From assembly GCA_913062955.1 (NCBI GenBank), contig CAJXZP010000019.1, positions 1 to 60,874 of the forward strand: DNA of 60,874 nucleotides. Reading direction: 5' to 3'. Positions 9,301 to 24,536 of this stretch are shown piece after piece. This stretch comes from an uncultured Flavobacteriales bacterium (lineage in GTDB: Bacteria; Bacteroidota; Bacteroidia; Flavobacteriales_G; Salibacteraceae). How positions within the stretch are numbered: position 1 is the first letter of the stretch; each line of letters starts with the position of its first letter. The notes under the pieces were generated by a model, which worked only from the letters and a program-made list of their open reading frames with translations, had not been told where the DNA came from and did no database searches. Made by a program: the position numbers and the translations under genes.

Positions 9301-11098
9301 TAATTCCACTACGGGAACGGATGTATTGACCGCTTGTGATTCCTTAACATGGATAGATGGCGTAACGTATACCGGAAGTAATAATGCCGCTACGTATACA
9401 TTAACAAACACTTTAGGTTGTGATAGTGTAGTGACTCTAGATTTAACGATAACTAATTCCACTACAGGAACGGATGTATTGACCGCTTGTGATTCCTCAA
9501 CTTGGATAGATGGCGTAACATACACAGCAAGCAATAATACCGTTACGTATACATTAACAAACACTTTAGGTTGTGATAGTGTAGTGACCTTGGATTTAAC
9601 CATCCATAACTCCAATACCCAAACGGATGTTATTACCGCCTGTGATTCCTTAACTTGGATAGATGGCGTAACCTACACAGCAAGCAATAATGCCGTTACG
9701 TATACATTAACAAACACTTTAGGTTGTGATAGTGTAGTGACCTTGGATTTAACCATCCATAACTCCACTACCGGAACAGATGTTATTACGGGGTGTGATT
9801 CCTTAACATGGATAGATGGCGTAACGTATACGGCAAGTAATAATACCGCTACGTTTACATTAACCAACACTTTAGGATGTGATAGTGTAGTGACCTTGGA
9901 TTTAACCATCCATTATTCTTCTATGGGTATAGATGTAATCACTGCTTGTGATCGTTTGACTTGGATAAATGGAATTACGTATTATTCAGATAATAATACG
10001 GCCATAGACACTATTATGAATAGTTTAGGATGTGATAGTATAGTTACTTTAAACTTAACTATTCAAACGATTGATTCAACGGTGATTCAAAGTAACGATA
10101 CTTTAACAGCTGTTGAAATTGGCGCATCTTACCAATGGATGGATTGCACTACGAACACCCTAATTAATGGGGCCGTTTCCCAACAGTTTGTACCTACTGT
10201 AACTGGGACTTATAGGGTGGAGATTACCAAAGGGCTCTGTGTGGATTCATCTGCTTGTTTTCAGGTAATTGTATGCGTCAACGAAGCTTTATATTCCGTT
10301 ATAAATAATGGTGCAGGAAATTTCGATTTTACAGATGTATCGCTCGGATCGTACACACAAACCCATTGGTCTTTTGGAGACGGAGTGACTTCCATACTTA
10401 GTAACCCAAATCATGTATATCAAGCCAATGGCAATTACGTAGTGGTATTAACTATTAACGACTCATTAGCCAGTAATATATGTATGAGCTACTTTATGGA
10501 TACCATAAGTGTGACAGGTGTAGGTTCGTCTTTGGTATGTCAAGCGGGTTTCTCCGTGTATTTCGATACGACCGCTGGAACGGTTAATGTAGTGAATAGT
10601 TCCATGGGAAATAACTTGAGTTATTCCTGGGATTTTGGGGATGGAGCTTCATCTACCCAACAATTCCCTACACATAGTTACGCAAGCAATGGCCCATTTA
10701 ATTTGTGTTTAACCATTGATGATGGCAATGGATGTGTAGATACCTATTGTGATTCTATTTCTAGCCAAGGGATTTGGTTTAGAACCTCTGGATTTGATCT
10801 ACATGTGGAAGGGGCGGAACCGAATTCAATGACGAACGTGGAATTAACACAAAACCTGAACATCTACCCCAATCCAGTGCAGGATGAAGTCCATATTGAA
10901 ATGACTAATTGGCTAACAAATGGAGTGAATATCATCGTACGGGATATCACCGGAAAACTGATTTTCACACAAGAAGTAGCGCCCGTTTCAAACCAAGAAA
11001 CCATTTCCATTAACACTTCCAAATGGGCGAAGGGAACCTACTTTATCGAAGTAGGTGATGGCGTGAATGTGGTGATTGAAAAAATGGTGGTGCAGTAG
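6323..11098 (+). CDS. Large T9SS beta-helix/PKD surface adhesin
   Basis: About 1591 residues from the ATG at 6323. The frame is open from 6248, but only 6323 places a clean signal peptide (MKKILLFILLIASFSSQAQ) at the N-terminus. Domains in order are: a right-handed beta-helix of Chlamydia-PMP-like STISGNTA..GGGI repeats with Ser-rich linkers (about 40-590); a choice-of-anchor-Q-type stretch; four TSPSGNYVWTSSNTY modules; seven 51-residue WIDGVTYTASNN...GCDSVVTLDLTI modules (about 895-1245); an Ig-like segment; two PKD domains (WSFGDG, WDFGDG); and a type A sorting domain (about 1510-1591, IYPNPVQDEVHIEM). It is exported by Sec/T9SS by homology. Ligand unknown. The repeats are highly similar at DNA level, so copy number may vary. 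Confidence 0.9.
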   Translation: MKKILLFILLIASFSSQAQTTHTVTNTNDAGVGSLRAAADSTVAGDTIRFASSLIASGSDSIVLTTGEISFGNKGITIKGVYNITDTLFISGNNNSRIFSFDEAGRVSLDSLVLINGNGLGINSSSKQGGAIYIRNCTDTLFVVNSTISGNSIIPVNSNTSGGWGDDGGGIYSFNSPLSLINSTISGNTARGGGGIFSTSSVSITNSNILGNSAFTGGGVCSIISPIRILNSTISGNTATMSGGGIHSSSVSITNSTISGNSAYAGGGICSDPSYFSDSCSIMILSSTISGNSAYSTSGGGIYSSSFVYSSIMVKSSTISGNTAINAGGGIFSFSSLFSSVSIINSSILGNSLSAHYSTGGGICSQSAPTASSPSSSSYSSLVSIINTTISGNSAFDGGGVYSFSKSHSFSFPSSSSSSSSVSITSSTISGNTAIRTGGGIYCYSITGSSSFPVSSSVNVTNSTVSGNTASITGGGVMSYCILPASNLNSSATVMVTNSTIAGNIASLGEGIYCQSYGTSISQSFGLPNSSVITITSSIVTENGSNGSGIFSSHPPTITSNGYNIFSDIPTGVIGTDSTNITTAQLNLQVLAFNGGSTQTMLPAVGSIALDHGNPNDSSDAQNAPIVGTRNVGAAESCYASPSSINVTECSFYTVPSGNLSYTQSGIYKDTIITTCGADSVITINLTINSTTSIITEMACDSYTSPSGNYVWTSSNTYKDTIPNAVNCDSIITINLIINSTTAIITETACNSYTSPSGNYIWTSSNTYMDTIPNASNCDSIITIILTVNYPSTATVTVTACDSYTSPSGNYVWTSSNTYMDTIPNAANCDSIITINLTIKNFTTSTINETACNSYTSPSGNYVWTSSNTYLDTIPNAANCDSILIINLIINNSSQSTDILTACDSLLWIDGVTYTASNNTATYTLTNTLGCDSVVTLDLTIHNSSTGTDVLTACDSVIWIDGVTYTASNNTATYTLTNTLGCDSVVTLDLTITNSTTGTDVLTACDSLTWIDGVTYTGSNNAATYTLTNTLGCDSVVTLDLTITNSTTGTDVLTACDSSTWIDGVTYTASNNTVTYTLTNTLGCDSVVTLDLTIHNSNTQTDVITACDSLTWIDGVTYTASNNAVTYTLTNTLGCDSVVTLDLTIHNSTTGTDVITGCDSLTWIDGVTYTASNNTATFTLTNTLGCDSVVTLDLTIHYSSMGIDVITACDRLTWINGITYYSDNNTAIDTIMNSLGCDSIVTLNLTIQTIDSTVIQSNDTLTAVEIGASYQWMDCTTNTLINGAVSQQFVPTVTGTYRVEITKGLCVDSSACFQVIVCVNEALYSVINNGAGNFDFTDVSLGSYTQTHWSFGDGVTSILSNPNHVYQANGNYVVVLTINDSLASNICMSYFMDTISVTGVGSSLVCQAGFSVYFDTTAGTVNVVNSSMGNNLSYSWDFGDGASSTQQFPTHSYASNGPFNLCLTIDDGNGCVDTYCDSISSQGIWFRTSGFDLHVEGAEPNSMTNVELTQNLNIYPNPVQDEVHIEMTNWLTNGVNIIVRDITGKLIFTQEVAPVSNQETISINTSKWAKGTYFIEVGDGVNVVIEKMVVQ
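7561..7586 (+). repeat. TCA/TCT trinucleotide microsatellite encoding a poly-Ser tract
   Basis: An uninterrupted run of TCA then TCT codons inside the beta-helix part of the adhesin encodes consecutive serines. Similar shorter TCT/TTC-rich stretches recur at about 7430-7470 and 7680-7700. Slippage would change length in frame, not switch the gene off. Confidence 0.75.
9004..9930 (+). repeat. Tandem 153-bp (51-residue) coding repeats
   Basis: Six near-identical units of 153 bp, each with two Cys-Asp-Ser motifs (ACDS and GCDS), are followed by a diverged seventh. The period is visible from successive TGGATAGATGGCGTAAC starts (for example 9044 and 9197). The same module occurs in the genes at the left edge, 28.6 kb and 32.3 kb. 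Confidence 0.85.
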
Positions 11099-11277
11099 AT
11101 TTAGGATGGCTCTGAATCGTTGGATGGGGATAATGTATAAGCTAGCTTTAAAATAACCGAATAAAAACGAAAGTCAATTGAATGTACATTACCGAATATA
11201 GGGGAAACGTCCGGATGAAAATCTGCGGAAACTAGAGATTGTTTAATTTTGAATTTTTTGAGTAATTAAGAAAATCA

Positions 11278-11613: not shown

Positions 11614-11640
11614 TAAACGACTATCCTTTCTGCTGTTTTT

Positions 11641-12130
11641 CGTTAACTCTGACAATGACTATGACTATGACAATGACAATGACTCTGACGATGACCTTAA
11701 TTTTTCCGTTAATATTTAAAGGTTAATAGTTATTTAGAATACTCTTACACCGACTTTGACAATGAATCTGGCTATGGTCTTTTTTTTAGCCTTAGCCTTT
11801 GTTTTAGTTTTAGCTGTTAATAGTTAATGGTTAACAGTCAATAGTTATTTTGACGCTGACGCTGACGCTGACAATGACCTTGATTTTCCGTTAATGGTTA
11901 AAAGTTAACAGTTATTAATTATACTCTTCAATGACAATGAATCTGGTCTTAGTCTTAGTCCAAGTCATAGTCTTTTTTTTACCCTTAGCTTTTGTTTTAA
12001 TTTTAGCTGTTAATAGTTAACGGTCAGGAGTTAACAGTTCTTTATACTACTCTTACAATGACAATGAATCTGGCCTTTGTCTTAGTCCAAGTCTTAGTCA
12101 TAGTGTTTTTTTTCAGCCTTAGCTTTAGCT
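11641..12130. repeat. Composite hexamer/heptamer repeat region in a 679-bp gene-free spacer
   Basis: The spacer between 11613 and 12293 is low-complexity but ordered. Hexamer arrays of the form GACNNT occur at 11651-11696 and 11852-11879. The inverse form (GTCNNA) occurs around 11945-11980 and 12075-12105. A heptamer run of GTTAATA-like units begins at 11816. A larger unit (ACTCTTAC... GACAATGAATCTGG ... poly-T ... TTTTAGCTG) is repeated about three times, starting near 11740, 11920 and 12050. No promoter or RNA gene was recognised. Confidence 0.75.
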
Positions 12131-12292
12131 GTGAATTTTCATATTGAATTTGTGGCTTTTTTCTTTCCCATTTTTAGAATTACCCTCCACATATGAGACA
12201 GAACCGGATATTTCGACTTCTAAAATGTCCGTAAATAGGCTCTTTCTTGTGTCTGGCATAATTATGAAATACCCTGTAGGAAAATAGAAATT

Positions 12293-12541: not shown

Positions 12542-12740
12542 GGCTAGTTAATACTTCAGAATATGCGTTTTCAACGTGCATTCTTTGGAGTATTGATCGT
12601 GCTTAAATCACCGCATGAATATCCAGTGGAATAATTCAATTATTGGAGTAGGTGGCAAGTCCTTAAAAATTACACCATCGAATTAGGTACTTTTGCATCC
12701 GGAAAAACGAGAAGAAATATCTTGTTTTGTGCGAGTATGT
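12542..12740 (+). repeat. Recurrent intergenic element, copy 1 (all blocks present)
   Basis: Four ordered blocks shared with other spacers of this region: A GGCTAGTTAATACTTCAGAA (12542), B ATTGGAGTAGGTGG (12642), C GGTACTTTTG (12686) and D TTGTTTTGTGCGAGTAT (12722). C to D is 36 bp, the same spacing as in the copies at 13.6 and 16.8 kb. Block D lies 56 bases before the next start codon. The 290-bp spacer 12488-12777 contains nothing else recognisable. Confidence 0.65.
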
Positions 12741-12777
12741 AGCAGTTTTCGGTAATTAAGGCATAACAAACTAAATA

Positions 12778-13467
12778 ATGGATAGGGATATTAAATATAT
12801 AACTGAAAATTTTATTGACTCCAATATGGTCTGTGAAATATCACAGATTTCTCATCAAGAATTAGAAAAATTAATAACCGATAAATTAATTCCTAATAGT
12901 TCCTATGAGATTAACATGACCTATAAAATTAATTCGCCATTGGGGGATGAAAAGGTAATTTCGGAAGCCAAAAAATACTTTCCTAAAAGTGTGCTAAATT
13001 TAATACAGGAGAATACTAAACGAAGTTCATCTGAATTCAAAGAAGTGTTGAAAACGGAATTTATGGAAGCATTTATCCAAAATGCGAATAACCAATTCGC
13101 TTACGATGGCATTTTAAAGAAAAATGGAAGTGTAGACATGGAGAAGTTAACGATAGCATTCGAACAAGAATGGCAATACTATCTCCAAGGAATTTATGGA
13201 ATTTGTACGATCAACGGGACCGGGACAGAAATTGCGAAAAAGGAAATAGCCGTGAAACGATTAATGGCATTTAATAAAAAACATGGGGAGAACAAGTTGG
13301 TAGATAAGGATAAAGAAATGCTGCGTATTTTGAACGATGAGTTTAATGAAGTATCTAGTTTATTTGCACCCTATCAACGTATAAGTAGTAGTAGAGGGAA
13401 ATACCTGGACAAAATTTTGAAATTAAACGCCTTATCTGGATGGATTAAAAACTACGCTAACGACTAG
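12778..13467 (+). CDS. DUF6058 family protein
   Basis: 229 residues, predicted soluble. The N-terminal pattern (MDRDIKYITENFI.. followed by a coiled/helical segment), the central WQYYLQGIYGICTINGTG block and the C-terminal FNEVSSLFAPYQRISSSRGK block match DUF6058, an uncharacterised family that has been labelled a natural-product biosynthesis protein. I see no catalytic motif, and there is no biosynthetic cluster around it. It stands alone as a single-gene unit between two copies of the recurrent intergenic element; the stop codon overlaps block A of the following copy. Function unknown. Confidence 0.75.
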   Translation: MDRDIKYITENFIDSNMVCEISQISHQELEKLITDKLIPNSSYEINMTYKINSPLGDEKVISEAKKYFPKSVLNLIQENTKRSSSEFKEVLKTEFMEAFIQNANNQFAYDGILKKNGSVDMEKLTIAFEQEWQYYLQGIYGICTINGTGTEIAKKEIAVKRLMAFNKKHGENKLVDKDKEMLRILNDEFNEVSSLFAPYQRISSSRGKYLDKILKLNALSGWIKNYAND

Positions 13468-13679
13468 TTTCTACTTTAGAGGATGTTAAGTAATGGCCTT
13501 TTTTTTCTAGATGATCACTCCTGCTCCGAAATGAATATCGTGGGTATTAATCAAATTAGAGTGGTCGGCATAAATCAACGGTGTTATAAGTAGCCAATCC
13601 GTAGATTTTACAAAACTGGAAATAGGGGGCTTTTGCCTCTGGGATAACGAGATAAATGGTCTTGTTATTTGCGAGTATT
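13462..13679 (+). repeat. Recurrent intergenic element, copy 2
   Basis: Blocks: A GACTAGTTTCTACTTTAGAG (13462, overlapping the DUF6058 stop), B ATTAGAGTGGTCGG (13555), C GGGGCTTTTG (13626) and D TTGTTATTTGCGAGTAT (13662). C to D is again 36 bp, and A to B is 93 bp. D lies 62 bases before the next start. Confidence 0.6.
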
Positions 13680-13723
13680 ATTAAGGAAAAAAAATTAAAC
13701 CGTAAACAACGCACAAAGCAAAT

Positions 13724-14068
13724 ATGGAAAAACGACTACAAATTTGGGGCCTATTGGCACTCTCGATGGCTTTTGGAAGTACCATATCCGGACAAACTAT
13801 TTACGAAGTCTCCTATGAATCGCAAGCGGACATTAAGGTGTTTGTGGTGGCGTACGAATCGCAATGCGACCTGAAAGTATTCAAAGTAAAGTATGCGTCA
13901 CAAGCAAACGAAGAGGGGCTATGGTACGTAGTTGCATATGAATCCCAAGCGGATAAAACAATCTACTTTGTAGATTATGAGTCGCAAGCTGATCTCAAAA
14001 TTTACTATGTAGATTATGAATCACAGGTAGGTTGGAGAAATAATTCGAAGGAGCATTTGTTGAAGTGA
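13724..14068 (+). CDS. DUF6150 / 7(1) septoil-knot-type repeat protein, secreted
   Basis: 114 residues with a signal peptide (MEKRLQIWGLLALSMAFGSTISG, partly quoted; cleavage near residue 23). Six repeats of about 12-15 residues follow, built on the motif (V/F)xxYESQAD (YESQAD, YESQCD, YASQAN, YESQAD, YESQAD, YESQVG). This pattern matches the small family whose predicted and later solved members form a 7_1 torus-knotted backbone (named septoil knot in Pfam, from memory). Biological function unknown. Envelope or extracellular location is inferred from the signal peptide. The chosen ATG (13724) gives the signal peptide; the longer frame starting upstream at 13656 is a different frame and is not used. 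Confidence 0.8.
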   Translation: MEKRLQIWGLLALSMAFGSTISGQTIYEVSYESQADIKVFVVAYESQCDLKVFKVKYASQANEEGLWYVVAYESQADKTIYFVDYESQADLKIYYVDYESQVGWRNNSKEHLLK

Positions 14069-14119
14069 CACCCAATTCTCCATAAAACAAACACCCTATG
14101 CAATGGCAACGTTTTTTAT

Positions 14120-14432
14120 ACCAAACGTTATACACGCTAATAAAACACACTTATGATAAACGAACTTCTTCGACATAAAGTATCCACTGTCCAATATTGA
14201 TTCGAAAAATCCGTATGAGATAGTCATGAAAAATTGGGGGAGTTTACTTATAGAAAAGGGAGTGAAAATCCCATGGGGACAAATGAAACATTGGAGTAGC
14301 GTGGGGGTGAAAAATACGGGGTGAAAATGCTGCCCCATTTAATTTATGTAACCGATTAAAGGGTACTTTGGCCGTCTTCAATTTTAAGGGGGAAACCTTG
14401 AAAGAAGCATTGTTTTGTGGGTATATATCTAG
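14120..14432 (+). repeat. Recurrent intergenic element, copy 3, with imperfect terminal inverted repeats
   Basis: This lies in the 391-bp gene-free spacer 14069-14459. Block A-like sequence is near 14177, B ATTGGAGTAGC at 14290, C GGTACTTTGG at 14362, D TTGTTTTGTGGGTATAT at 14410 (C to D 48 bp). The left end (AAACGTTATACACGCTAATA, about 14126) is roughly complementary to the right end around block D, so the element could fold back on itself. Confidence 0.55.
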
Positions 14433-14459
14433 GTACTCTATCATTCAATTAGAATACAA

Positions 14460-15020
14460 ATGGTAAATGAATTTGACATAACAGTACGAGAAATTCAATT
14501 AAAAGACATCGATCTAATAGCCGACTATTGGCTTGAATCGGAACCGGATTTTTTAGTTCAAATGGGAGTTGATTTAAACAAATTACCTACAAGAAAAGCA
14601 TTGAAAGAAATGCTTTCGGTACAATGCGCTAATCCATTGATGTACAAGAAGTCGTATGCTTTGATCTGGGAGCTTAACGGAGCCCAAGTTGGACACTCCA
14701 ATGTGAATCAAATCGAATTCGGTGAGGTAGCCACGATGCATTTACATTTATGGCAAGCAACAAATAGAAAAAAGGGAATGGGAACCGAATTGGTGAAAAA
14801 ATCAATCCCCTTTTATTTTGAGAGTTTAAAAATTAAAAAATTGATCTGTGAACCCTATGCTTTAAATCCGGCACCCAACGAAACCTTAAGAAAAGTAGGG
14901 TTTGAATTCCTAAAAAGACACCGGACGATTCCGGGCTCCTTAAATTTTGAGCAAGAAGTGAATCGTTGGGAATTAAGCCGAGAGAAGTATGAAAAAATGA
15001 GCGAAAGGCACTTAAAATAA
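14460..15020 (+). CDS. GNAT-family N-acetyltransferase (RimJ-like)
   Basis: 186 residues. The acetyl-CoA loop is NRKKGMGTE (102-110); the C-terminal block EPYALNPAPNETLRKVGFEF is typical of Acetyltransf_3/RimJ-type members, which acetylate protein N-termini, ribosomal proteins or small molecules. The acceptor here is unknown. It is a single-gene unit with recurrent elements on both sides. The ATG at 14460 is 50 bases after block D of the preceding element. Confidence 0.8.
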   Translation: MVNEFDITVREIQLKDIDLIADYWLESEPDFLVQMGVDLNKLPTRKALKEMLSVQCANPLMYKKSYALIWELNGAQVGHSNVNQIEFGEVATMHLHLWQATNRKKGMGTELVKKSIPFYFESLKIKKLICEPYALNPAPNETLRKVGFEFLKRHRTIPGSLNFEQEVNRWELSREKYEKMSERHLK

Positions 15021-15187
15021 AGGGCTTTAAAACGCATTTTATTCATTGGAGACGAAGGACCCCCACGATCAAATATCATCAATTTACACCTAATTTAACT
15101 TAGGAACCCGTTTCTAAAAACTAGAGGAATAATTGAGAGTTTAATTTTTTTAATGAAAAATGTCCTAGCTCCAATTACGATGCATAC

Positions 15188-15425
15188 GGCTAGTTTCTAC
15201 CTCAGAATATGCAAGGTCTCTTTTTTTCTTGTAGCCCCACTTGGATTCATAAACAAGTAGTACCTCCTTTTGAACATGTACTATGGGAGGAGGGTAAATC
15301 AGTAAATAACACAACAAGAAAAGCCTGCCATTGATTTTAGGGATCCGACAAAAGAGTCCTTTAAAAGACACTTTTCCGAAAGGATAATAAACCGCCAAAT
15401 AGAGGCTGTTTTGTGCGGATAATTG
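15188..15425 (+). repeat. Recurrent intergenic element, copy 4
   Basis: This sits in the 420-bp spacer 15021-15440. Block A GGCTAGTTTCTACCTCAGAA (15188) is followed after about 94 bp by a B-like TATGGGAGGAGGGTAA (15282). D is CTGTTTTGTGCGGAT (15406), then GTACGTTAGTAG directly before the next start. Block C is diverged. The rest of the spacer shows no gene. Confidence 0.55.
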
Positions 15426-15440
15426 TACGTTAGTAGTTCC

Positions 15441-15872
15441 ATGAAAAGAATCGAAAAAAATTTCGTTGAAAAAGATAAATTGGATATTGATAAATTAACA
15501 AATCGTTTCTTTGATTTATTTACCAATAAAGAGGACAGAATCCCAAATGTGGCGGATATAAAAAAACTCTTTATTAAAGAGGGGGTGATCATAAATAACA
15601 CTTCTGGTCAACCTTTGGTTTATGGTCTACAAGATTTCATTGCACCCAGAGAAAAAATACTGAAGGACGGAACATTAATGGAGTTTAGTGAATATGAAAC
15701 ATCCCATAAAACGGACGTATTTCAAAATATAGCCCAACGATTTTGTCGGTATAAAAAATCGGGGATTCTGAACGGAGAATTCTTTGAATCTGAAGGAATG
15801 AAAGCAATTCAATTCATTAAAATAGATACGCAATGGAAAATGGTCAGTGTCATCTGGAGTGATACAGATTAA
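15441..15872 (+). CDS. NTF2-like / SnoaL-type small protein
   Basis: 143 residues from ATG 15441; the frame is open from a TTG at 15423, but that codon lies within the end of the recurrent element, so the ATG is preferred. Helical N-terminus, then a pattern (TNRFFDLFTNKE ... ADIKKLFIKEGVIIN ... SEYETSHKTDVFQNIAQRF, quoted in part ... WKMVSVIWSD) that resembles the cone-shaped NTF2-like fold of DUF4440/SnoaL proteins. No catalytic residues are evident, so a ligand-binding or small-molecule-modifying role can only be guessed. Single-gene unit. Confidence 0.65.
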   Translation: MKRIEKNFVEKDKLDIDKLTNRFFDLFTNKEDRIPNVADIKKLFIKEGVIINNTSGQPLVYGLQDFIAPREKILKDGTLMEFSEYETSHKTDVFQNIAQRFCRYKKSGILNGEFFESEGMKAIQFIKIDTQWKMVSVIWSDTD

Positions 15873-16150
15873 ATACCACAGCCAATAAATCCAAGTAAAG
15901 CCAAATAAATCAAGTATCTCCAATTAACCAAAACCCATGGTTAGGTATCTCCAAATTTATTGCTCCGCAATAAATAGACCGGGTAACTTTAGTTCGTAAG
16001 CCGCAATAATCTTAATTTTATAGGATGGGGTAGATCAGACTCATTTGGAAATGAGCGAATTATTTAAATGGTATAGAGCTGTGATGCGTGTTTTTAAGAG
16101 GTTTCAAAACCCCATTGGTAAGTTCTCAGCGATAAGCAAAAAATGATGAA
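15873..16150. other. 278-bp spacer with small hairpins
   Basis: Contains a direct repeat (GTATCTCCAA twice, about 15930-15955), an 8-bp hairpin (ATTTATTG/CAATAAAT with loop CTCCG, about 15956-15976) and a 7-bp hairpin (CTCATTT/AAATGAG, about 16040-16055). A weak block-B-like GGGGTAGATC is near 16028. The full recurrent element is not recognisable. Confidence 0.45.
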
Positions 16151-16684
16151 ATGATAAAACAGATAGAATTTCCATCCAGAAATGAATATCCAATATATGC
16201 AGAAATGTATATGAAATTAGTCACTAAAGACGGTACACTTATTCAACAATTGAAATCTAGTTTGGAGAGAACGAAAGCTTTAATTAATGATTTACCGAAG
16301 GATAAACTGAATTATAGATACGCAAAAAATAAATGGTCCATAAAGGAAGTCTTGGTTCATATAATGGATGATGAAAGAATTTATGGATATAGAGCTCTTT
16401 GCTTTGCTAGAAATGATAAAACCAATCTTCCCGGGTTTGAACAAGAAGCGTATAATTATAACTCGGATTCCGCAGAGCGAAGCATCGAGAATATCATGGC
16501 GGAATATGAAGCATTAAGATTATCCACTATCGCTTTGTTTAATGGACTTTCAGATACGTCTCTAATGCGAATTGGAATTGCGAATGGGAATCCCGCAAGT
16601 GCCAGAGCATTAGGGTATCATATTCTTGGACACGAATTACATCATATTAAAATTATGGAAGATGTCTATTTAAAAAACACCTAA
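16151..16684 (+). CDS. DinB/YfiT-like putative metal-dependent enzyme
   Basis: 177 residues, four-helix-bundle family (DinB_2/DfsB type, unrelated to DNA polymerase IV despite the name). The metal triad is visible: His70 in VLVHIMDDER and His161/His165 in HELHHIKIM. Trp62 of NKWSIKEVLVH is also typical. Known relatives include bacillithiol and mycothiol S-transferases and damage-inducible proteins; the substrate here is unknown. The gene is a single unit; the stop is followed at once by sequence resembling the left end of the recurrent element. Confidence 0.8.
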   Translation: MIKQIEFPSRNEYPIYAEMYMKLVTKDGTLIQQLKSSLERTKALINDLPKDKLNYRYAKNKWSIKEVLVHIMDDERIYGYRALCFARNDKTNLPGFEQEAYNYNSDSAERSIENIMAEYEALRLSTIALFNGLSDTSLMRIGIANGNPASARALGYHILGHELHHIKIMEDVYLKNT

Positions 16685-16861
16685 TAACCAACACGCTATA
16701 AACAAGCAAACACTTAACCTTAATTATTATGCAGGTCTATTAATTGGACGAACTATGATGGAGGGGCTTTTGAAGGCAATCTATAAAGTATAAAAGCAGT
16801 GTTTTGTATGGATATAACTACTTTAGCAACCATTTATACACAACTTCAATCGAATATTTTG
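16685..16861 (+). repeat. Recurrent intergenic element, copy 5 (partial)
   Basis: Block C GGGGCTTTTG (16763) and D GTGTTTTGTATGGATATAAC (16799) are spaced 36 bp as in copies 1 and 2. Block A is absent. The left end (AACACGCTATAAACAAG, about 16690) loosely complements the D end. Because D is intergenic in the other copies, the GTG at 16799 is unlikely to be the start of the following gene. Confidence 0.5.
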
Positions 16862-17200
16862 ATGGATACTAAGGATACGATTTACATCACCCAATTAATT
16901 TTTGTGAAGGAAGGCAAAGAAAAAACATTTCTTGAATTTGAAAAATTCGCCATTCCTCTGATGGAGAAATATAAAGGGAGAATAATTTATAGGTTAAGAC
17001 CGACTAAAGAAACTTTTATCTCCGAAGAAAAAGAATTACCCTATGAAATTCACTTTATATCTTTTGATTCTGAAAAGGATTTTAATGAATTTATGAAGGA
17101 TGATAGTCGATTGGACTTTATTCATTTAAAAGAGGAATCTGTGAGTTCCATGATGCTCGTTAAAGGACAGGAAATATACGGAGATGAAAATGGAGATTAA
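16862..17200 (+). CDS. Dimeric alpha/beta-barrel protein, DUF1330-like
   Basis: 112 residues from ATG 16862; upstream in-frame GTG 16799 and ATG 16808 fall in the recurrent element and are rejected. The pattern YITQLIFVKEGKEKTFLEFE.. (quoted in part), IPLMEKYKGRIIYRLRP and FDSEKDFNEFMKDDSR resembles DUF1330 and antibiotic-biosynthesis-monooxygenase-type ferredoxin-like folds. No cofactor motif is visible. Its end overlaps the next gene by 17 bp, so the two are translated from one transcript, an exception to the single-gene pattern here. Confidence 0.65.
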   Translation: MDTKDTIYITQLIFVKEGKEKTFLEFEKFAIPLMEKYKGRIIYRLRPTKETFISEEKELPYEIHFISFDSEKDFNEFMKDDSRLDFIHLKEESVSSMMLVKGQEIYGDENGD

Positions 17201-17630
17201 AGAAATAAAGGCTCAAGAAACGTATAGTCTTAGACAGCAGGTGATGTGGCCGGATAAGCCACTAGAATTTGTTATGCTGAATAACGATGAAGAGGGGGTG
17301 CATTTTGGACTTTGGAAAGATTCAAATATTATTTCTGTAGTGTCCTTATTTAGGAATGGGAATGTGGCACAATTCAGGAAATTTGCGACTAAAACTTCTG
17401 AACAAGGAAATGGATTTGGGACACTTTTATTGGAGTATGTAATGACTTTTGTCTCTAACGAAAAAATAGAGAAACTATGGTGTAACGCTAGAGCAGATAA
17501 AACTTCATTTTACGAAAGGTTAGGAATGACTCAAACTCCCAAAACATTTATGAAAGAGGGTATTGACTATATACTAATGGAAAAAACATTTGCGAACAAT
17601 GATTCTCAAAGGGAAACTACATTCCGTTAA
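17184..17630 (+). CDS. GNAT-family N-acetyltransferase
   Basis: 148 residues; a start at the ATG two codons further on (17190) is equally possible. N-terminal SLRQQVMWPDKPLEF is a hallmark of a small GNAT subgroup, and the acetyl-CoA loop is QGNGFGT (74-80). The C-terminal FYERLGM segment completes the fold. Acceptor unknown. Translationally coupled to the DUF1330-like gene by a 17-bp overlap, so the pair may act together. Confidence 0.8.
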   Translation: MKMEIKEIKAQETYSLRQQVMWPDKPLEFVMLNNDEEGVHFGLWKDSNIISVVSLFRNGNVAQFRKFATKTSEQGNGFGTLLLEYVMTFVSNEKIEKLWCNARADKTSFYERLGMTQTPKTFMKEGIDYILMEKTFANNDSQRETTFR

Positions 17631-17674
17631 AGCAAACGAAATCATTTATATCCGGTTTTTAAAAAACTAAAATT

Positions 17675-19393
17675 TTGAAGAATTTTATTTCAGTATTTCT
17701 AATAAGCTTAATAGGGCTTTTGTGTCCGTCAATTCTGGCTCAATCGGTCAATTTTGAATGGGTTACCCCTCTGGGTAAATCCACGAGTGCGAGTGGCTTT
17801 GGTTCCACCAACGATTTTGGAAATGCCATCACTACCGATGCACTAGGCCATGTTTATAGCACCGGCTTTTTTCACGATACGGTGGATTTTGATCCCGGGG
17901 TAGGCGTTCATAATTTGATTTCAATAGGACTGCATGATGTTTTTATCCAAAAGTTAGATGGTTCCGGGAATTTGCTTTGGGCGCATTCTATAGAAGGACC
18001 TTTATCCAGTGAAGGTCATTCCATCACCATCGGTCCTTCTGGAAACGTGTATGTCACAGGAACTTTTTACGGTACCGTAGATTTTGATCCTGGTGCGGGA
18101 GTTTTCACCTTGACTTCCACAGGAAACAGTGTGTTTATTGAAAAATTAGATAGCCAAGGTAATTTTTTGTGGGCTAAATTACTGGATGAAACCTCCGGGT
18201 ATTCTGGAAGTTTTGTTTCCACAGATGACTTGGGATATGTATATGTTACCGGAGCTTTTAATGATACGGTAGATTTTGATCCGGGTACGGGCGTTTTTAA
18301 CCTGGTTTCAAATGGGGGGCGGGATATTTTTGTCGAAAAGCTAGATTCTAACGGCTATTTTGTATGGGCGCATTCCATGGGCGGGATCGCGGATGATTAC
18401 AGTACGAACATAGCTACAGATGTATGGGGCAATATGTATATTATTGGGGAGTTTGAAGATACTGCAGATTTTGATCCAGGTGCCGGAACGTTTCATCTAG
18501 CATCCTCTTCATCCGTTAAGGATGCGTTTATTTTAAAGTTGGGTTTAAACGGGAATTTCGTTTCAGCCCGATCCATGGATGCTCATTGTTATGCGATCAC
18601 TGCAGATATTTCTGGAAATATATACATCACCGGAAAGTACTATGGCACCATTGACTTCGATCCAAGCGCTGGAGTTTTTAATCTAACAGCAGGTTATTAT
18701 GATGCCTTTATCCAAAAAATAGATAGGTACGAGAATTTTATTTGGGCAAAATCAATCGGAGGTGAGGCTCAAGATAATACGGTAGGAATTTCCATTACCA
18801 CCGATATCGTTGGGAATGTATATATCACAGGAACTTATGATGGTAAAGTAGATTTTGATCCGGGCATGGGAATTTTTCATCAAACCGCAAATGGTTGGAG
18901 AGCGGATGTTTTTATTGAGAAATTAGATACCCATGGCAATTTTCTATGGGTCGCAACCGTGGGAGGTTTAGGACAAAATTCCGGCAATTCAATAACCGTA
19001 GATACCGAGGGTAATGTGTATACCACCGGTGCCTTTGAAGAAACCGTAGATTTTGATCCCAGCTCTGGGTCAATGATCTTGACCTCCAAAAGTGAAGGGG
19101 ATGTATTTATTCTGAAGTTGAGCCAGTCCCCCCCTTTGCGGACAGAAGAAAGCCCTTTGTTTACGAATGTATCCATCTTCCCAAATCCAAATACGGGCCA
19201 GGTAAATATTAATTTAGATCACCTCAAAAACGTATCTGTTAAAGTTGTTAATGCGAAGGGGCAATGCATTTACCAAAAAGAAAATATCAACACTTCCATT
19301 TTGCAACTAGAATTAAATGAGGCGCCCGGTATTTACATTATTGAAATAGATGCACATGGAAAGAAGGAGTACTATAAACTAGTGAAGAAGTAG
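17675..19393 (+). CDS. SBBP-repeat beta-propeller protein with T9SS sorting domain
   Basis: 572 residues. The only usable start is TTG 17675: an in-frame TAA lies a few codons upstream and no ATG/GTG follows early, while TTG gives a clean signal peptide (MKNFISVFLISLIGLLCPSI, ending SILAQ). Seven to eight repeats of about 55-60 residues follow, with the signature GxVYxTGxFxxTVDFDPGxG...VFIQKLDxxGNFLWA (SBBP type), likely forming a propeller. A type A sorting domain ends the protein (FPNPNTGQVNINLDHLKN ... YYKLVKK). Surface-exposed by homology; ligand unknown. The same SBBP-like repeat opens the adhesin at 32.3 kb. Confidence 0.88.
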   Translation: MKNFISVFLISLIGLLCPSILAQSVNFEWVTPLGKSTSASGFGSTNDFGNAITTDALGHVYSTGFFHDTVDFDPGVGVHNLISIGLHDVFIQKLDGSGNLLWAHSIEGPLSSEGHSITIGPSGNVYVTGTFYGTVDFDPGAGVFTLTSTGNSVFIEKLDSQGNFLWAKLLDETSGYSGSFVSTDDLGYVYVTGAFNDTVDFDPGTGVFNLVSNGGRDIFVEKLDSNGYFVWAHSMGGIADDYSTNIATDVWGNMYIIGEFEDTADFDPGAGTFHLASSSSVKDAFILKLGLNGNFVSARSMDAHCYAITADISGNIYITGKYYGTIDFDPSAGVFNLTAGYYDAFIQKIDRYENFIWAKSIGGEAQDNTVGISITTDIVGNVYITGTYDGKVDFDPGMGIFHQTANGWRADVFIEKLDTHGNFLWVATVGGLGQNSGNSITVDTEGNVYTTGAFEETVDFDPSSGSMILTSKSEGDVFILKLSQSPPLRTEESPLFTNVSIFPNPNTGQVNINLDHLKNVSVKVVNAKGQCIYQKENINTSILQLELNEAPGIYIIEIDAHGKKEYYKLVKK

Positions 19394-19555
19394 GTGCTTA
19401 TGTAGGATTATTTCATGTCCGTTTTTGGAGGTGCTAGATTTGAAACAGCAAAGGGAATCAACTATAATGGTTCGGATGAAAATAAGGACGGGCCTAAATA
19501 AAACTATATCCTTAAAAGGACGTTTACTCCGTACGTTATCCATAAAAGAAAGAAA

Positions 19556-20863
19556 ATGAATAAAGTAATATTGATCTTCTGGAGTATTTTCATGTTTACA
19601 GGTATAGAAGCACAAGTAGGCAGAAGTTTTAGTTCTTTAGAAAAAGCGTTGAAAAATCCAGCGAGTGTATCGAATCTTTATTTGACAGGAAAGGGCCTCG
19701 AAAGTTTGCCGGAATCCATTGGAGATTTAACTAATTTAAAAATACTTCGTTTAGAAGTCAATAATTTAAGTGAGATTCCAGAATCTATTGGGAAGTTAAC
19801 GCAATTAACAGAACTCCATATTAGTACGAACAAGCTAACAAGTCTACCTGAATCCATCGGTGATTTATCAAATTTAATCCTATTGGATGTTCGATTTAAT
19901 AAAATAACAAAGCTCCCAAAATCCATTGGGAATTTAAAAAACTTACAACAGCTTCTTCTTAGCGATAACCATTTAACGAGCCTTCCTGAATCGATAGCCG
20001 ATTTAAAAAAATTAAGAACCCTTTTACTGGATAAAAACCAACTAACGAGTTTGTCTGAATCGGTCACGAATTTGGAATACTTAGAAATACTTTCTCTTAA
20101 CGAGAATCAGTTAACGAGCTTGCCCGAATCTATCGGACGATTAAGCGCTTTGTCAAGTTTATCAATTTATGGTAACCCGGTAAGCACATTACCAAATTCG
20201 CTATTTAATTTATCGAAATTATCAAAACTTCATTTGAGTAGTAATCATTTAACAAGCCTACCCAAATCATTTGGATATTTAAAGAGTTTAAAGGAGCTTC
20301 ATATTCTAAATACTCCCATATCTACCTTACCGGAATCCATTTGGAACTTAACAAATTTGACCCATCTGGCTATTAACGGAACCAAGATATCCAAGCTATC
20401 AGAATCCATTGGGAATTTAAAAAACCTAAATATCCTTTCTCTGACGGATAACGAATTAACAAAGGTACCCGAATCTATAGGTAATTTAACGAAGGTAACA
20501 CGACTCAGCCTAGATGGCAATAAATTAACAAGCTTGCCAGAATCTATAGGGAACTTAACTCAGTTACACACCTTGCGTGTAGAAAACAACAAGTTAACAA
20601 GCCTACCGGAAGCATTGGGTAACTTGAACCAGTTAGGAGTGTTTAATGCCAAAAGGAATCAATTAGTGGATGTTCCAAACACCATTGGGAATTTGACTAA
20701 ATTAAATAGCCTCAACCTGGAAGACAATAAATTAACCCAATTACCAGAATCCATTGAGAATTTAACAAGCTTAAGATACTTTTATCTTCACTCCAATAAT
20801 TTTTCTATAAAAGAAATGGAGCAGATAAAAAACGCATTACCTAGATGTAGAATTTCATTGTAA
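19556..20863 (+). CDS. Secreted leucine-rich-repeat protein
   Basis: 435 residues with signal peptide (MNKVILIFWSIFMFTGIEAQ). After a short SLEKALKNPASVSNL linker come about 16 leucine-rich repeats of 23 residues with consensus LxxLxLxxNxLxxLPESIGNL, the plant-intracellular-Ras-group type of LRR. There is no transmembrane segment and no T9SS sorting domain, so periplasmic or outer-membrane-associated location is a guess. Likely a protein-protein interaction scaffold. Only 16 bp separate it from the next LRR gene, which starts its LRR part with the same SLEEALKRPERVFKL linker, so the two form an operon of paralogous parts. Confidence 0.88.
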   Translation: MNKVILIFWSIFMFTGIEAQVGRSFSSLEKALKNPASVSNLYLTGKGLESLPESIGDLTNLKILRLEVNNLSEIPESIGKLTQLTELHISTNKLTSLPESIGDLSNLILLDVRFNKITKLPKSIGNLKNLQQLLLSDNHLTSLPESIADLKKLRTLLLDKNQLTSLSESVTNLEYLEILSLNENQLTSLPESIGRLSALSSLSIYGNPVSTLPNSLFNLSKLSKLHLSSNHLTSLPKSFGYLKSLKELHILNTPISTLPESIWNLTNLTHLAINGTKISKLSESIGNLKNLNILSLTDNELTKVPESIGNLTKVTRLSLDGNKLTSLPESIGNLTQLHTLRVENNKLTSLPEALGNLNQLGVFNAKRNQLVDVPNTIGNLTKLNSLNLEDNKLTQLPESIENLTSLRYFYLHSNNFSIKEMEQIKNALPRCRISL

Positions 20864-20879
20864 TAGGAGGGTTTGGAAA

Positions 20880-23087
20880 ATGGATAAAATAAAATTCGTA
20901 CTGTTTGTTTCTCTTGTCATTTTTAGCTTTTTGTCCAAAGGTCAAAAGCGGGATACAAAAATCAAAAGATTCATCCCGGAGCCGATATTAATCGGTCTTT
21001 GGGATTTAAATGAGATCGAGAGTAATTATTTTCTGTACGATGTTTCTGGAAATAATAAGCACTTCTATAATGGGAATAAAATTAGCCATTGGAAAAGAGA
21101 TAGTTTAAACCATTTTATTTTTCATAAAGAAACGCACTTTTCTTCTGGAAGCTTAATTCTTAATAAATTCCCCTATACTATTTTAATTAAATTCAAAGTC
21201 ACTAAAAGCAAAGGCAAAAACACCTTAATTTCCTGTCGGAATTATTTTAGATCGGCTTATTCTATCCAACTTATTAATGAGTCGGATGAGAATTGGATTG
21301 AAATAGATTATTTAGGCGAAACTATTCGGGCTAAAAAGAAGTGTGAAATAGATAAATGGTATACCGTGGTTGCCGTTTTTACGGAAAAAGAAATGTCCTT
21401 ATATATGAATGGGGAACAGGTGGGGAGTAGAAGTCATACACCCTATGTAGCCATAAATGATGTGAATTTAAGTTTTGGAAATCATAAAACCAATCCAAAT
21501 CAAGAGTTTGAGGGGGTAATAGATGAATTAGCTTTATGGGAAGGAGTACTTACAGAAAAACAATTAAGTAACATTACTTATCCTATAAGTACGCAGACAA
21601 ATATCCACGATATAAAAATCATCATTTATTTAAATCAAGGCCGACATCCCTTTAAGAATACGGAAATAGAAGAAAATGAAATATTCAGTTCACTGGAAAC
21701 TATGGATTTTATGAGTCAGTACCCGTATACTAGCAATCCAAAAGAATTTAATGCTTTAGCAGATCCATTCGGTTACCATTGTGATTATTCTAAAAGAGAA
21801 GAGCTACTGAAATATGTTCGTGATAACCCGGGTAGTATTAAAAATCCATTCTTCTTTTTGGGTGATTTATGTCTGGAAATGACGCCTTATATACTAGAGT
21901 ACTATTCATTTCTAGTGTATTACAATCAAAATGTAAATGAGCGTTTATTCGACATGGTAATTGAATTGTATTTTAATTATCCGGACTTGCAATTGTTAAA
22001 TGGAAGTCGTTCAGAATTGTCCCATTTTAAACGATTAGATGACAACGGAAAAACCCCCTTAATGTACGCCACTGAATTTGGGTATTTGGGCTCAGCAAAA
22101 AAAATAATAGGTTTTTCGAATGTAAACCAACAAAACTTTTTAGGACAAACAGCCTTAAGCAACGCCTGTAAGAATAATGACCTTCAGTTAATGAGCTTAC
22201 TTTGGGATTATGGAGCGAACGAGAATATAAAAGACCAATATGGAAAAAAACCAATGGATTATTGCACCACAACAGAAGCTAAGAATCTATTTTTTAATCT
22301 TTTAATTGCGGCAGAAAAGGACCAGAAAGTGTATCACTCCCTGGAGGAAGCTTTAAAGAGACCTGAAAGGGTATTCAAACTAAATCTTTCGAATCAGTAT
22401 CTCACCCAACTACCCGAAAACATCGTGAAATTTAAGAATTTAAAAGAACTAGATCTTTCTAATAACCTATTCACCCATTTTCCCGAAGGTATTTCTGAGC
22501 TCACAAATTTAGTTTCACTTAACCTTTCCAAAAACCAATTGACCCGTCTACCGGAAAGTATCTATAAAATGGATAGTTTAAAATCTCTTCTTCTTTCACG
22601 GAACCAACTGACTCGCCTTCCGGAGAATATCCATAAAATGAGTACGTTAGAATCTCTGGATATTTCGTTCAACCTGCTGACCCACTTATCGGATAATATC
22701 TTTAAGATAAAGAGTTTAAAAGTGCTCAATCTTTCCAATAACCAACTGTCTAGTCTTGGTGCAGGGATCCATAACTTGAAAAATTTAACAAAGCTTCGGC
22801 TTTCGGGTAACCAGCTCACTAGCCTTCCTGAAAAGATGTATACGATGAAAAATATAACTTACCTGGATCTTTCGTTTAACCTATTGATTCATATTTCGGA
22901 AGACATTCAACAAATGGAGCGTTTAACGTATCTCTGGCTTTCCAATAACCAACTGACTCGCCTTCCTGAGAGTCTCAATAAAATGCATACGATCAAATAC
23001 CTGAATATTAAGGGGAACCATTTTTTACAAGAAGAAAAGGAAAAAATCAAAAAACTACCGTTCTATTATGAATACGAGTTTAAATAA
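20880..23087 (+). CDS. Multi-domain secreted protein: LamG-like, ankyrin, leucine-rich repeats
   Basis: 735 residues with signal peptide (MDKIKFVLFVSLVIFSFLSK, cut after KGQ). Domains: LamG/concanavalin-like lectin fold (about 35-235; KWYTVVAVFTEKEMSLYMNG and GVIDELALWEGVL are diagnostic); an unassigned segment (about 240-370); two to three ankyrin repeats (about 380-470; DDNGKTPLMYATEFGYL, NFLGQTALSNACKNNDLQLM); the SLEEALKRPERV linker; and eight to nine LRRs (about 495-725). The combination of carbohydrate-binding-like, ankyrin and LRR modules in one exported protein is unusual. No sorting domain. In operon with the LRR gene just upstream. Confidence 0.8.
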   Translation: MDKIKFVLFVSLVIFSFLSKGQKRDTKIKRFIPEPILIGLWDLNEIESNYFLYDVSGNNKHFYNGNKISHWKRDSLNHFIFHKETHFSSGSLILNKFPYTILIKFKVTKSKGKNTLISCRNYFRSAYSIQLINESDENWIEIDYLGETIRAKKKCEIDKWYTVVAVFTEKEMSLYMNGEQVGSRSHTPYVAINDVNLSFGNHKTNPNQEFEGVIDELALWEGVLTEKQLSNITYPISTQTNIHDIKIIIYLNQGRHPFKNTEIEENEIFSSLETMDFMSQYPYTSNPKEFNALADPFGYHCDYSKREELLKYVRDNPGSIKNPFFFLGDLCLEMTPYILEYYSFLVYYNQNVNERLFDMVIELYFNYPDLQLLNGSRSELSHFKRLDDNGKTPLMYATEFGYLGSAKKIIGFSNVNQQNFLGQTALSNACKNNDLQLMSLLWDYGANENIKDQYGKKPMDYCTTTEAKNLFFNLLIAAEKDQKVYHSLEEALKRPERVFKLNLSNQYLTQLPENIVKFKNLKELDLSNNLFTHFPEGISELTNLVSLNLSKNQLTRLPESIYKMDSLKSLLLSRNQLTRLPENIHKMSTLESLDISFNLLTHLSDNIFKIKSLKVLNLSNNQLSSLGAGIHNLKNLTKLRLSGNQLTSLPEKMYTMKNITYLDLSFNLLIHISEDIQQMERLTYLWLSNNQLTRLPESLNKMHTIKYLNIKGNHFLQEEKEKIKKLPFYYEYEFK

Positions 23088-23199
23088 CAAGGTTCCAATG
23101 GCGATTAACCCAGCAAACCTTTCGCTTTCCTGGTACTTTAATTATTGAGTATAAGCACTTGGAAACCCCATAAAGAAAGCCCCAAGAGGCAAACAAAAT

Positions 23200-23339
23200 A
23201 TTGGAGTAGGGTAGATCCGGAAATAATGGGACTAAAAACCAAGTCCATTGATTTGATACCCCCGAATTTATGGTACTTTAGGATCCTTAATATATCACAT
23301 GAAAGTCTCTTGAAAAATGAGGTGTTTTGTGGATATTGA
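23200..23339 (+). repeat. Recurrent intergenic element, copy 6
   Basis: B ATTGGAGTAGGGTAGATCC (23200), C GGTACTTTAGG (23272) and D TGTTTTGTGGATAT (23323) occur in the same order as in the 12.6 and 14.3 kb copies. C to D is about 50 bp. D ends directly at the start of the five-gene operon. Block A was not found. Confidence 0.55.
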
Positions 23340-24128
23340 ATGGTTCAAATTATTAAACAAAACAGATTGAAAAAGAAAAAATTAGGGTACGTAATTTTGG
23401 GTGTCATCGGAATTATAGCCTTAATAATTTTAGCATTCTCTTCCCCGATTGAACAAAATGAGGGATACCATAATTTTAGTGATACCTTAACCATTGGAGG
23501 GGTGCCATATTTTTGGAATGTGATTTCTAATTTCCCCTTTCTGATAGTTGGGGTTTTCGGAATTATTCGGCTGAAAAAAATGGATCGCGTAAATTTTCAA
23601 TTTGTTACATTTTTTATTGGGATTTCTTTTGTTGCCGTTGGTTCAGGATATTATCATTTCAATCCCGATAGCAGCACATTAGTTTGGGATAGATTACCAA
23701 TGACCATTGCTTTTACGGCATTAATGTCAATTGTGATCTCTGAGTTTATAGATGACAAAAAAGGAAAATTGTTATTCGTTCCATTCGTTTTACTTGGAAT
23801 AATTTCCATTGTTTACTGGATAGAATTAGGCGATTTACGATTATATGCATTCGTCCAATTTTATCCGATTCTAGCCATTCCAGTTATTTTAATTTTATTC
23901 AAATCGGAAAAGAATTCACCCAATGGATTTTGGCTTCTGTTAATCGCTTATATAGGCGCCAAATTATTGGAGACATATGATTTTGAAATTCATAATGCAT
24001 TGAAACTGGTAAGTGGTCATTCGTTAAAACACATTTCTGCCTCTGTAGGGATTTACTTATGGATAGATTCCTATATTCGACAAAATAAAAGGCCTGAGGT
24101 TACTAAAACTGCGTTAAATACAGCTTAG
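23340..24128 (+). CDS. CREST-superfamily membrane hydrolase, alkaline ceramidase-like
   Basis: 262 residues with about seven predicted membrane helices. Candidate metal/catalytic residues fit the CREST pattern: His106 and Asp117 in YYHFNPDSSTLVWDRLP and the pair His227/His231 in HSLKHISAS. YHNFSD (43-48) precedes the second helix. CREST members include alkaline ceramidases, PAQR receptors and PGAP3-like proteins, which hydrolyse amide or ester bonds of lipids. A lipid amidase is a plausible inference but the substrate is not shown. It opens a five-gene run whose later genes overlap. Confidence 0.75.
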   Translation: MVQIIKQNRLKKKKLGYVILGVIGIIALIILAFSSPIEQNEGYHNFSDTLTIGGVPYFWNVISNFPFLIVGVFGIIRLKKMDRVNFQFVTFFIGISFVAVGSGYYHFNPDSSTLVWDRLPMTIAFTALMSIVISEFIDDKKGKLLFVPFVLLGIISIVYWIELGDLRLYAFVQFYPILAIPVILILFKSEKNSPNGFWLLLIAYIGAKLLETYDFEIHNALKLVSGHSLKHISASVGIYLWIDSYIRQNKRPEVTKTALNTA

Positions 24129-24143
24129 GTCTATGTGGCGAAT

Positions 24144-24536
24144 ATGTTGAAAAACAAAAATATACATAATGTTTTAACAGTTTTGATAGCGGCCGTTTGG
24201 CTGGTGAATGGGCTTATGTGTAAAGTGTTACATCTGGTACCTCGACACGAACAAATTGTGGTGGAAATTCTAGGTAAAGATTATTCAGGGACATGGACCG
24301 TTCTTATCGGACTTTCGGAGATTGGAATGGCTCTATGGATTTTGACAAAGTATAAATCGAATTTAAGTGCCATTACGCAAATAGCAATCGTTATGACCAT
24401 GAATGTTTTAGAATTTTTTCTTGTTCCTGACCTTTTACTTTGGGGGAAGTTTAATTCTATTTTCGCTCTACTATTTATCGGATTGGTTTACGCGAATGAA
24501 TTTGTTTGGAACCCTAATAAACTCTTAAGTAAATGA
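24144..24536 (+). CDS. DoxX-like small membrane protein
   Basis: 130 residues from ATG 24144; the GTG at 24135 is also in frame but lies only 7 bases after the previous stop. Four hydrophobic helices with the HLVPRHEQIV segment after helix 1 match the DoxX-like_3 type family, found next to various oxidoreductase or lipid genes. Its own activity is unknown. The stop overlaps the next start (ATGA type), so it is translationally coupled. Confidence 0.7.
   Translation: MLKNKNIHNVLTVLIAAVWLVNGLMCKVLHLVPRHEQIVVEILGKDYSGTWTVLIGLSEIGMALWILTKYKSNLSAITQIAIVMTMNVLEFFLVPDLLLWGKFNSIFALLFIGLVYANEFVWNPNKLLSK

Follow-up and report, generated by a model that had tools for sequence, protein, structure and literature searches.

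Published surveys find integrons in the Bacteroidetes to be rare or of varying prevalence. IntegronFinder 2.0 has for this group only the array-less integrases of its earlier survey and one complete integron, in Salinibacter ruber (PMC9024848), and a survey of attC models for 11 taxa includes none for the Bacteroidetes (PMC8352920). The locus described here is like a CALIN, a set of integron cassettes with no integrase, or a sedentary chromosomal integron in having small accessory genes in tandem on one strand, a recurrent site at their junctions and a recombinase elsewhere in the genome. It lies in a window of 60,874 nucleotides, the entire contig C19 in a draft assembly of 3.9 Mb from an uncultured Flavobacteriales bacterium. 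An original prediction, made from the letters of the window, had read it as a gene-capture array.

A recurrent element at gene junctions

Spacers at 12.5, 13.5, 14.2, 15.2, 16.8 and 23.2 kb in the window have blocks A to D in common, in order, with similarity well above that of shuffled controls. When relocated in the window sequence, the blocks were found at the predicted positions. Two models of the element were built. R1 is a sequence-only model of the C-D part made from the window copies alone, and R2 is a longer model whose training set includes two copies on contig C31 found by R1. The features of the array are as follows.

11149..11205, +, element, weak seventh copy (R2, E 0.026 genome-wide), upstream of the first small gene; the same spacer holds the motif TAACCGAA
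11278..11613, +, gene for a 111-aa protein, of patchy distribution in the family (64-71% aa at best)
12542..12566, +, block A, copy 1, 22/25 identical to the 15188 copy
12627..12743, +, element B-C-D, copy 1 (B 12642, C 12686 with TACTTTTG, D 12722)
12778..13467, +, DUF6058 gene (Pfam), present in 1/149 relatives
13462..13486, +, block A, copy 2, overlapping the DUF6058 stop codon
13554..13685, +, element B-C-D, copy 2 (R2 72 bits; 93-bp alignment with copy 1)
13724..14068, +, DUF6150 gene (Pfam), the 'knot protein' of the original prediction
14111..14130, +, possible hairpin-site right-arm remnant GTTTTTTATACCAAACGTTA, 2 mismatches to TTTTNATATACYAAACGTTA
14281..14433, +, element B-C-D, copy 3 (R2 82 bits)
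14460..15020, +, GNAT acetyltransferase gene (Pfam)
15188..15212, +, block A, copy 3 (block comparison, alignment)
15274..15429, +, element B-C-D, copy 4 (R2 71 bits)
15441..15872, +, 143-aa gene, predicted as NTF2-like; no Pfam match
16151..16684, +, DinB_2 (YfiT-like) gene; upstream spacer 15873-16150 without element
16729..16820, +, element C-D, copy 5 (short; R2 32.6 bits, E 2e-7)
16862..17200, +, gene of 112 aa without a Pfam match, DUF1330-like on visual inspection
17184..17630, +, GNAT gene, overlapping the preceding 112-aa gene
23192..23342, +, element B-C-D, copy 6 (R2 78 bits)
23340..24128, +, ceramidase-family gene, directly after element copy 6

Block A is found at 12542, 13462 and 15188. 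Block B is exact at 12642 and has three mismatches each at 14290 and 23200. Block C, GGTACTTTTG, is exact at 12686, nearly so at 14362 and 23272, and weaker at 13.6, 15.4 and 16.8 kb; block D lies at 12722, 13662, 14410, 15406, ~16799 and 23322. The spacing from C to D is 36 bp in three copies (12.7, 13.6 and 16.8 kb), as predicted, and 48-50 bp in three more, of which two had been counted. As also predicted, a start codon follows block D at a distance of 18-63 bp, and all copies are oriented alike relative to the downstream gene. The element is absent from the spacer 15873-16150 and from the stretch 17.2-23.1 kb of the window.

Local alignments between the spacers beat dinucleotide shuffles. 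The 12.5 and 13.5 kb spacers align over 93 bp with z = 12-13, and z is 6-8 for the 12.5/15 kb pair, 5-7 for 15/23 kb, 4-5 for 14/23 kb and 3-4 for 14/16.8 kb. A control pair in the window (36.3/41.4 kb) also gives a high z, caused by a low-complexity CTCCC repeat. The z value alone is therefore no proof; the consistent block order and the genome-wide scans provide it. A small hairpin ending in block D exhibits compensatory changes across the six window copies, in the same alignment on which the hairpin was picked. A large hairpin in block A was strong in one copy only, and was discarded. A search of Rfam gave no match to a curated RNA family.

Further copies are present in the genome. R1 finds an independent copy on C31 (E 1.2e-5) plus a weak one nearby, and R2, applied genome-wide, places copies only on C19 and C31. 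There are two strong copies on C31 under R2 and one weak (C31:22223, E 0.038), and the weak copies C19:11149 and C31:22223 both lie in spacers upstream of small genes. On C31 the copies are always upstream of a same-strand gene, within a second, nearly one-stranded array of similar content, comprising methyltransferase, DinB-like, GNAT, WG-repeat and several unknown small genes. The window elements form one family, copied on C31. Single-box matches inspected elsewhere in the genome appear within coding sequence, and a match on C47 lies inside a gene. Across 395 further genomes of the class no convincing copy was found; the weak R1 and R2 matches inspected there were mostly inside coding sequence, none of them convincing. 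BLAST searches of relatives, phages and plasmids likewise gave no convincing copy, and the array has no relatives among the phages and plasmids.

Genes of the array

The units have the composition that had been predicted, with one small accessory gene (once two) on one strand and a recurrent junction element. The 112-aa and GNAT genes overlap, and are therefore two genes in one unit. A fixed gene order across relatives was looked for and not found; the genes are patchy, with no shared order. Homologues are scattered over the family at differing places, only the DUF2071 operon (24.1-26.0 kb) staying together, and around them no recurrent spacers resembling those of the window were found. Homologues of the DUF6058 protein that are 55-72% identical occur in Tenacibaculum, Spongiivirga and Roseivirga with no element beside them, and DUF6058 was rejected on this ground as a marker of the element. 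The window genes look like horizontally acquired accessory genes.

The window also contains other repeats. Between a large secreted protein and the array lies a simple-sequence tract (11638-12120) of TGACAATGAC-type and TTAGTC-type repeats. Tandem repeats of 153 bp are found in very large secreted proteins, at 9011-10075 and in the repeat proteins of 28.6-36.3 kb, and these very large proteins have C-terminal sorting-like domains. Such a protein content, and the relatives of the genome, would place it in the Bacteroidota.

A tyrosine recombinase with repeat arrays behind it

There is no integrase in the window, as had been noted, and the genome encodes a recombinase elsewhere. This is a tyrosine recombinase of 382 aa on C57 (2344-3492, minus strand). 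Its best family is NF040815, which bears the name 'site-specific tyrosine recombinase/integron integrase', at 213 bits against a cut-off of 220, and its closest solved structures are XerC-like 4a8e, XerA 5hxy and IntI4 2a3v. Where IntI4 2a3v has 67 residues (179-246) the C57 recombinase has 20 (285-305), and thus the IntI-specific additional domain is missing. TIGR02249 matches the protein over two stretches. A TIGR02249 search of 36 genomes gave no match above cut-off, and most of the 36 encode sub-threshold proteins of 360-425 residues besides the ordinary Xer of 300 residues.

On C57 the recombinase is followed by two genes, with 240-bp spacers that are 95% identical, at the contig end (L124:1-3492, minus strand). 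Spacers of this type occur in 12 copies with 73-100% identity on C57, C50, C23, C82 and C77. In the genomes G001, G018 and G003 strongly recurrent spacers likewise lie downstream of a recombinase, and repeats in the same position in G010 and G042 probably reflect the same layout. The contig ends less than 3 kb downstream of the recombinase at 17/25 loci, against 2/25 upstream (the latter read from the contig extents); such an excess is expected if repeats lie downstream. In the downstream arrays AAC..GTT palindromes have a density of 1.0 per 10 kb; shuffling lowers this to 0.25, and the controls, among them the opposite flank of some recombinases, give 0.06. As a rule, arrays in this genome mix site families; C82 and C23 carry that of C57 together with others. 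C82 (L219:2488-6787) also has four copies of another recurrent spacer family, 350-465 bp long, next to other site types.

Relatives of the recombinase were observed on two plasmids. In Acinetobacter plasmid NZ_CP039146.1 (L221) a fragment sharing 53% identity with the C57 recombinase reaches the start of tet(X3) on the same strand; this gene may have stood first among the cassettes behind a recombinase of this kind before it left the Bacteroidota. The recombinase family is also present on the Persicobacter (Cytophagales) plasmid CP012862.1 (L222); hairpin sites follow it at 24193 and 28404, among genes that resemble transposases and a reverse transcriptase.

A hairpin site across the class

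Seven sites from three genera give a 72% alignment with a 17-bp stem containing unpaired positions, and AAC and GTT at its ends. Eight of the 17 pairs have changes on both sides. Pairing holds in 97% of cells, compared with 83% in shuffles, and the covariation score was reached by none of 500 shuffles. The G001, G018 and G003 sites fold as imperfect hairpins, and the C57 sites do so in part (z = -2.3).

A covariance model of the hairpin site (R3) gives matches at E ≤ 1e-4 in 219 of the 395 class genomes; the site counts are lower bounds, as no more than eight candidates per genome were scored. Locus L237 has ~14 sites in 17 kb, and L239 and L241 have 8 each, with toxin-antitoxin-like genes, small regulators and unknowns between the sites. 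Among 46 hairpin sites AAC is at the left end in 40 and GTT at the right end in 41, and RYYYAAC and GTTRRRY occur together in none. The lack of this attC consensus would explain why attC-based tools miss the sites. A literature search, which left preprints and most subscription journals outside its range, found no paper describing them, and hairpin sites forming dense cassette arrays across the class are apparently undescribed.

Relation of the window elements to the hairpin sites

The expectation of gene capture was borne out in part, by the recurrent element, the patchy one-strand genes, the second array and a real recombinase and hairpin system; it did not hold in that the window sites are unmatched to the hairpin model. 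On C19 and C31 R3 finds nothing at E ≤ 5, and the window junctions have no consistent long AAC..GTT palindrome. Pairwise alignment and a position matrix gave no significant similarity between window elements and hairpin sites; for three G001 spacers the best matrix position is at the expected place, and the overall result is not significant. Within 21 spacers of the window and C31 there are 2 RYYYAAC/GTTRRRY pairs where ~1 is expected, so that these are not enriched. Shuffling the whole window 100 times produced at least one match like the possible right-arm remnant at 14111..14130 in 21 cases.

Three observations tie the window to the hairpin system, namely mixed junctions on C31, mixed arrays in the genome and the motif TAACCGAA. 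On C31 the junction at 11874-12163 (L108 coordinates) belongs to the G001/C82/C23 site type: two 27-mers match it in the right order, one with 5 mismatches and one with 4 (z = 8.7-10.3). Other junctions of this gene run are window-type. On C77 an R3 site lies beside a C57-type site. Association with a recombinase is direct for C57, G001, G018 and G003; for the window it is only via the mixed C31 array. TAACCGAA lies inside the hairpin sites of G001, G018 and G003, and in 5.2 kb of window and C31 spacers it occurs four times on the gene strand and not at all on the other, with ~0.15 expected at the control rate. The Poisson p for this enrichment is ~2e-5, for a motif that was picked with both sets in view. 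Block D also looks similar to the right-hand end of certain hairpin sites (TGTTTTGTGCGGAT compared with CGTTGTGCGGCAT).

The recombinase with its recurrent spacers, the covarying hairpin site found class-wide and the mixed array on C31 are direct observations. The window elements are an undescribed site family of uncertain membership, which probably, though not demonstrably, belongs to the hairpin system.

Origin of the array

We give about even odds to the reading that the window holds a cassette array, diverged or decayed and lacking a local integrase, with units gathered by an integron-like system of the Bacteroidota. Each unit would be one small accessory gene (once two) with a junction element of 150-250 bp. 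The Xer/IntI-like tyrosine recombinase from C57 would recombine hairpin sites folded from single strands, with AAC and GTT ends, and would thereby string the genes head to tail, acting on the window in trans or in the past. The window-type elements may have descended from hairpin sites or replaced them, the recombinase may have acted upon them, and block D would be the right end of the recombination site.

The main rival is that the spacers are a shared regulatory region of co-regulated accessory genes, with a promoter in block C and a leader hairpin ending in D, and that there was no capture. The Bacteroidota promoter is TTG-N-TAnnTTTG. It had been stated that the element does not match TAnnTTTG, which is wrong for block C; the 12.7 kb copy has TACTTTTG, an exact TAnnTTTG, with near-matches in other copies, and because of this box block C probably doubles as the promoter of the next gene. 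The constant position of D 18-63 bp before a start codon, the compensatory changes in the small hairpin and the single orientation of the copies relative to the downstream gene also fit regulation, although the six sequences showing these changes are also those from which the hairpin was drawn. Yet the window element is 3-5 times longer than the Bacteroidota promoter and spans the end of the preceding gene; homology extends 100-200 bp upstream through blocks A and B, with A overlapping the stop codon of the gene before. Moreover the copies are confined to two gene clusters of this genome and occur in no relative, unlike a regulon. We regard regulation without capture as rather unlikely. A promoter in the element need not exclude capture, because each unit may carry its own.

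It is a little harder to believe that the spacers arose by old local duplication, or are remnants of promoter-carrying miniature transposons, and that the genes were inserted later by ordinary recombination at the repeats. The copies are diverged and clustered in two places, and homologous recombination between repeats could exchange genes. However, there is no transposase in the window, no terminal inverted repeats were noticed, and the copies all point one way directly before genes. A miniature transposon should scatter, whereas the genome-wide scan finds none elsewhere. Very improbable is an ordinary integron of IntI and attC sites with its integrase on another contig. Layout and gene content are those of an integrase-less attC cluster, and the recombinase matches TIGR02249 over its two stretches, but the 36 genomes contain no above-cut-off match and the recombinase has 20 residues in place of the 67 of IntI4. 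RYYYAAC/GTTRRRY is not enriched in the window spacers, and the two motifs are together in 0/46 hairpin sites. In its strict form the ordinary integron is refuted by these integrase-domain and attC-consensus tests.

Significance and comparison with known systems

The cassette-array reading would place the window within something larger. We put a little short of even the chance that the Bacteroidota have a widespread, integron-like capture system, with a Xer-like recombinase lacking the IntI domain and non-attC hairpins missed by the finders, of which the window is an old, diverged array with its own site family. This looks like an overlooked integron-like capture system, present in over half the genomes sampled from the class. 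A hairpin site in 219/395 genomes would change the view of integrons as rare in the Bacteroidetes, would offer a mechanism by which toxin-antitoxin, defence and stress genes spread through a phylum that ranks among the most abundant, and would put to the test the need for the IntI-specific domain in cassette recombination.

The C57 recombinase is like XerA/XerC/XerD-type recombinases in its best family and its best structures (4a8e and 5hxy). It differs from them in lying below the NF040815 cut-off, in an N-terminal extension of ~100 residues and in its link to repeat arrays. Compared with CALIN and sedentary integrons, the recombinase has no IntI-specific additional domain, the sites lack RYYYAAC/GTTRRRY, and the window elements themselves have no hairpin. 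The sites of the relatives share with those systems their hairpins, AAC and GTT ends, unpaired positions and arrays placed right behind a tyrosine recombinase.
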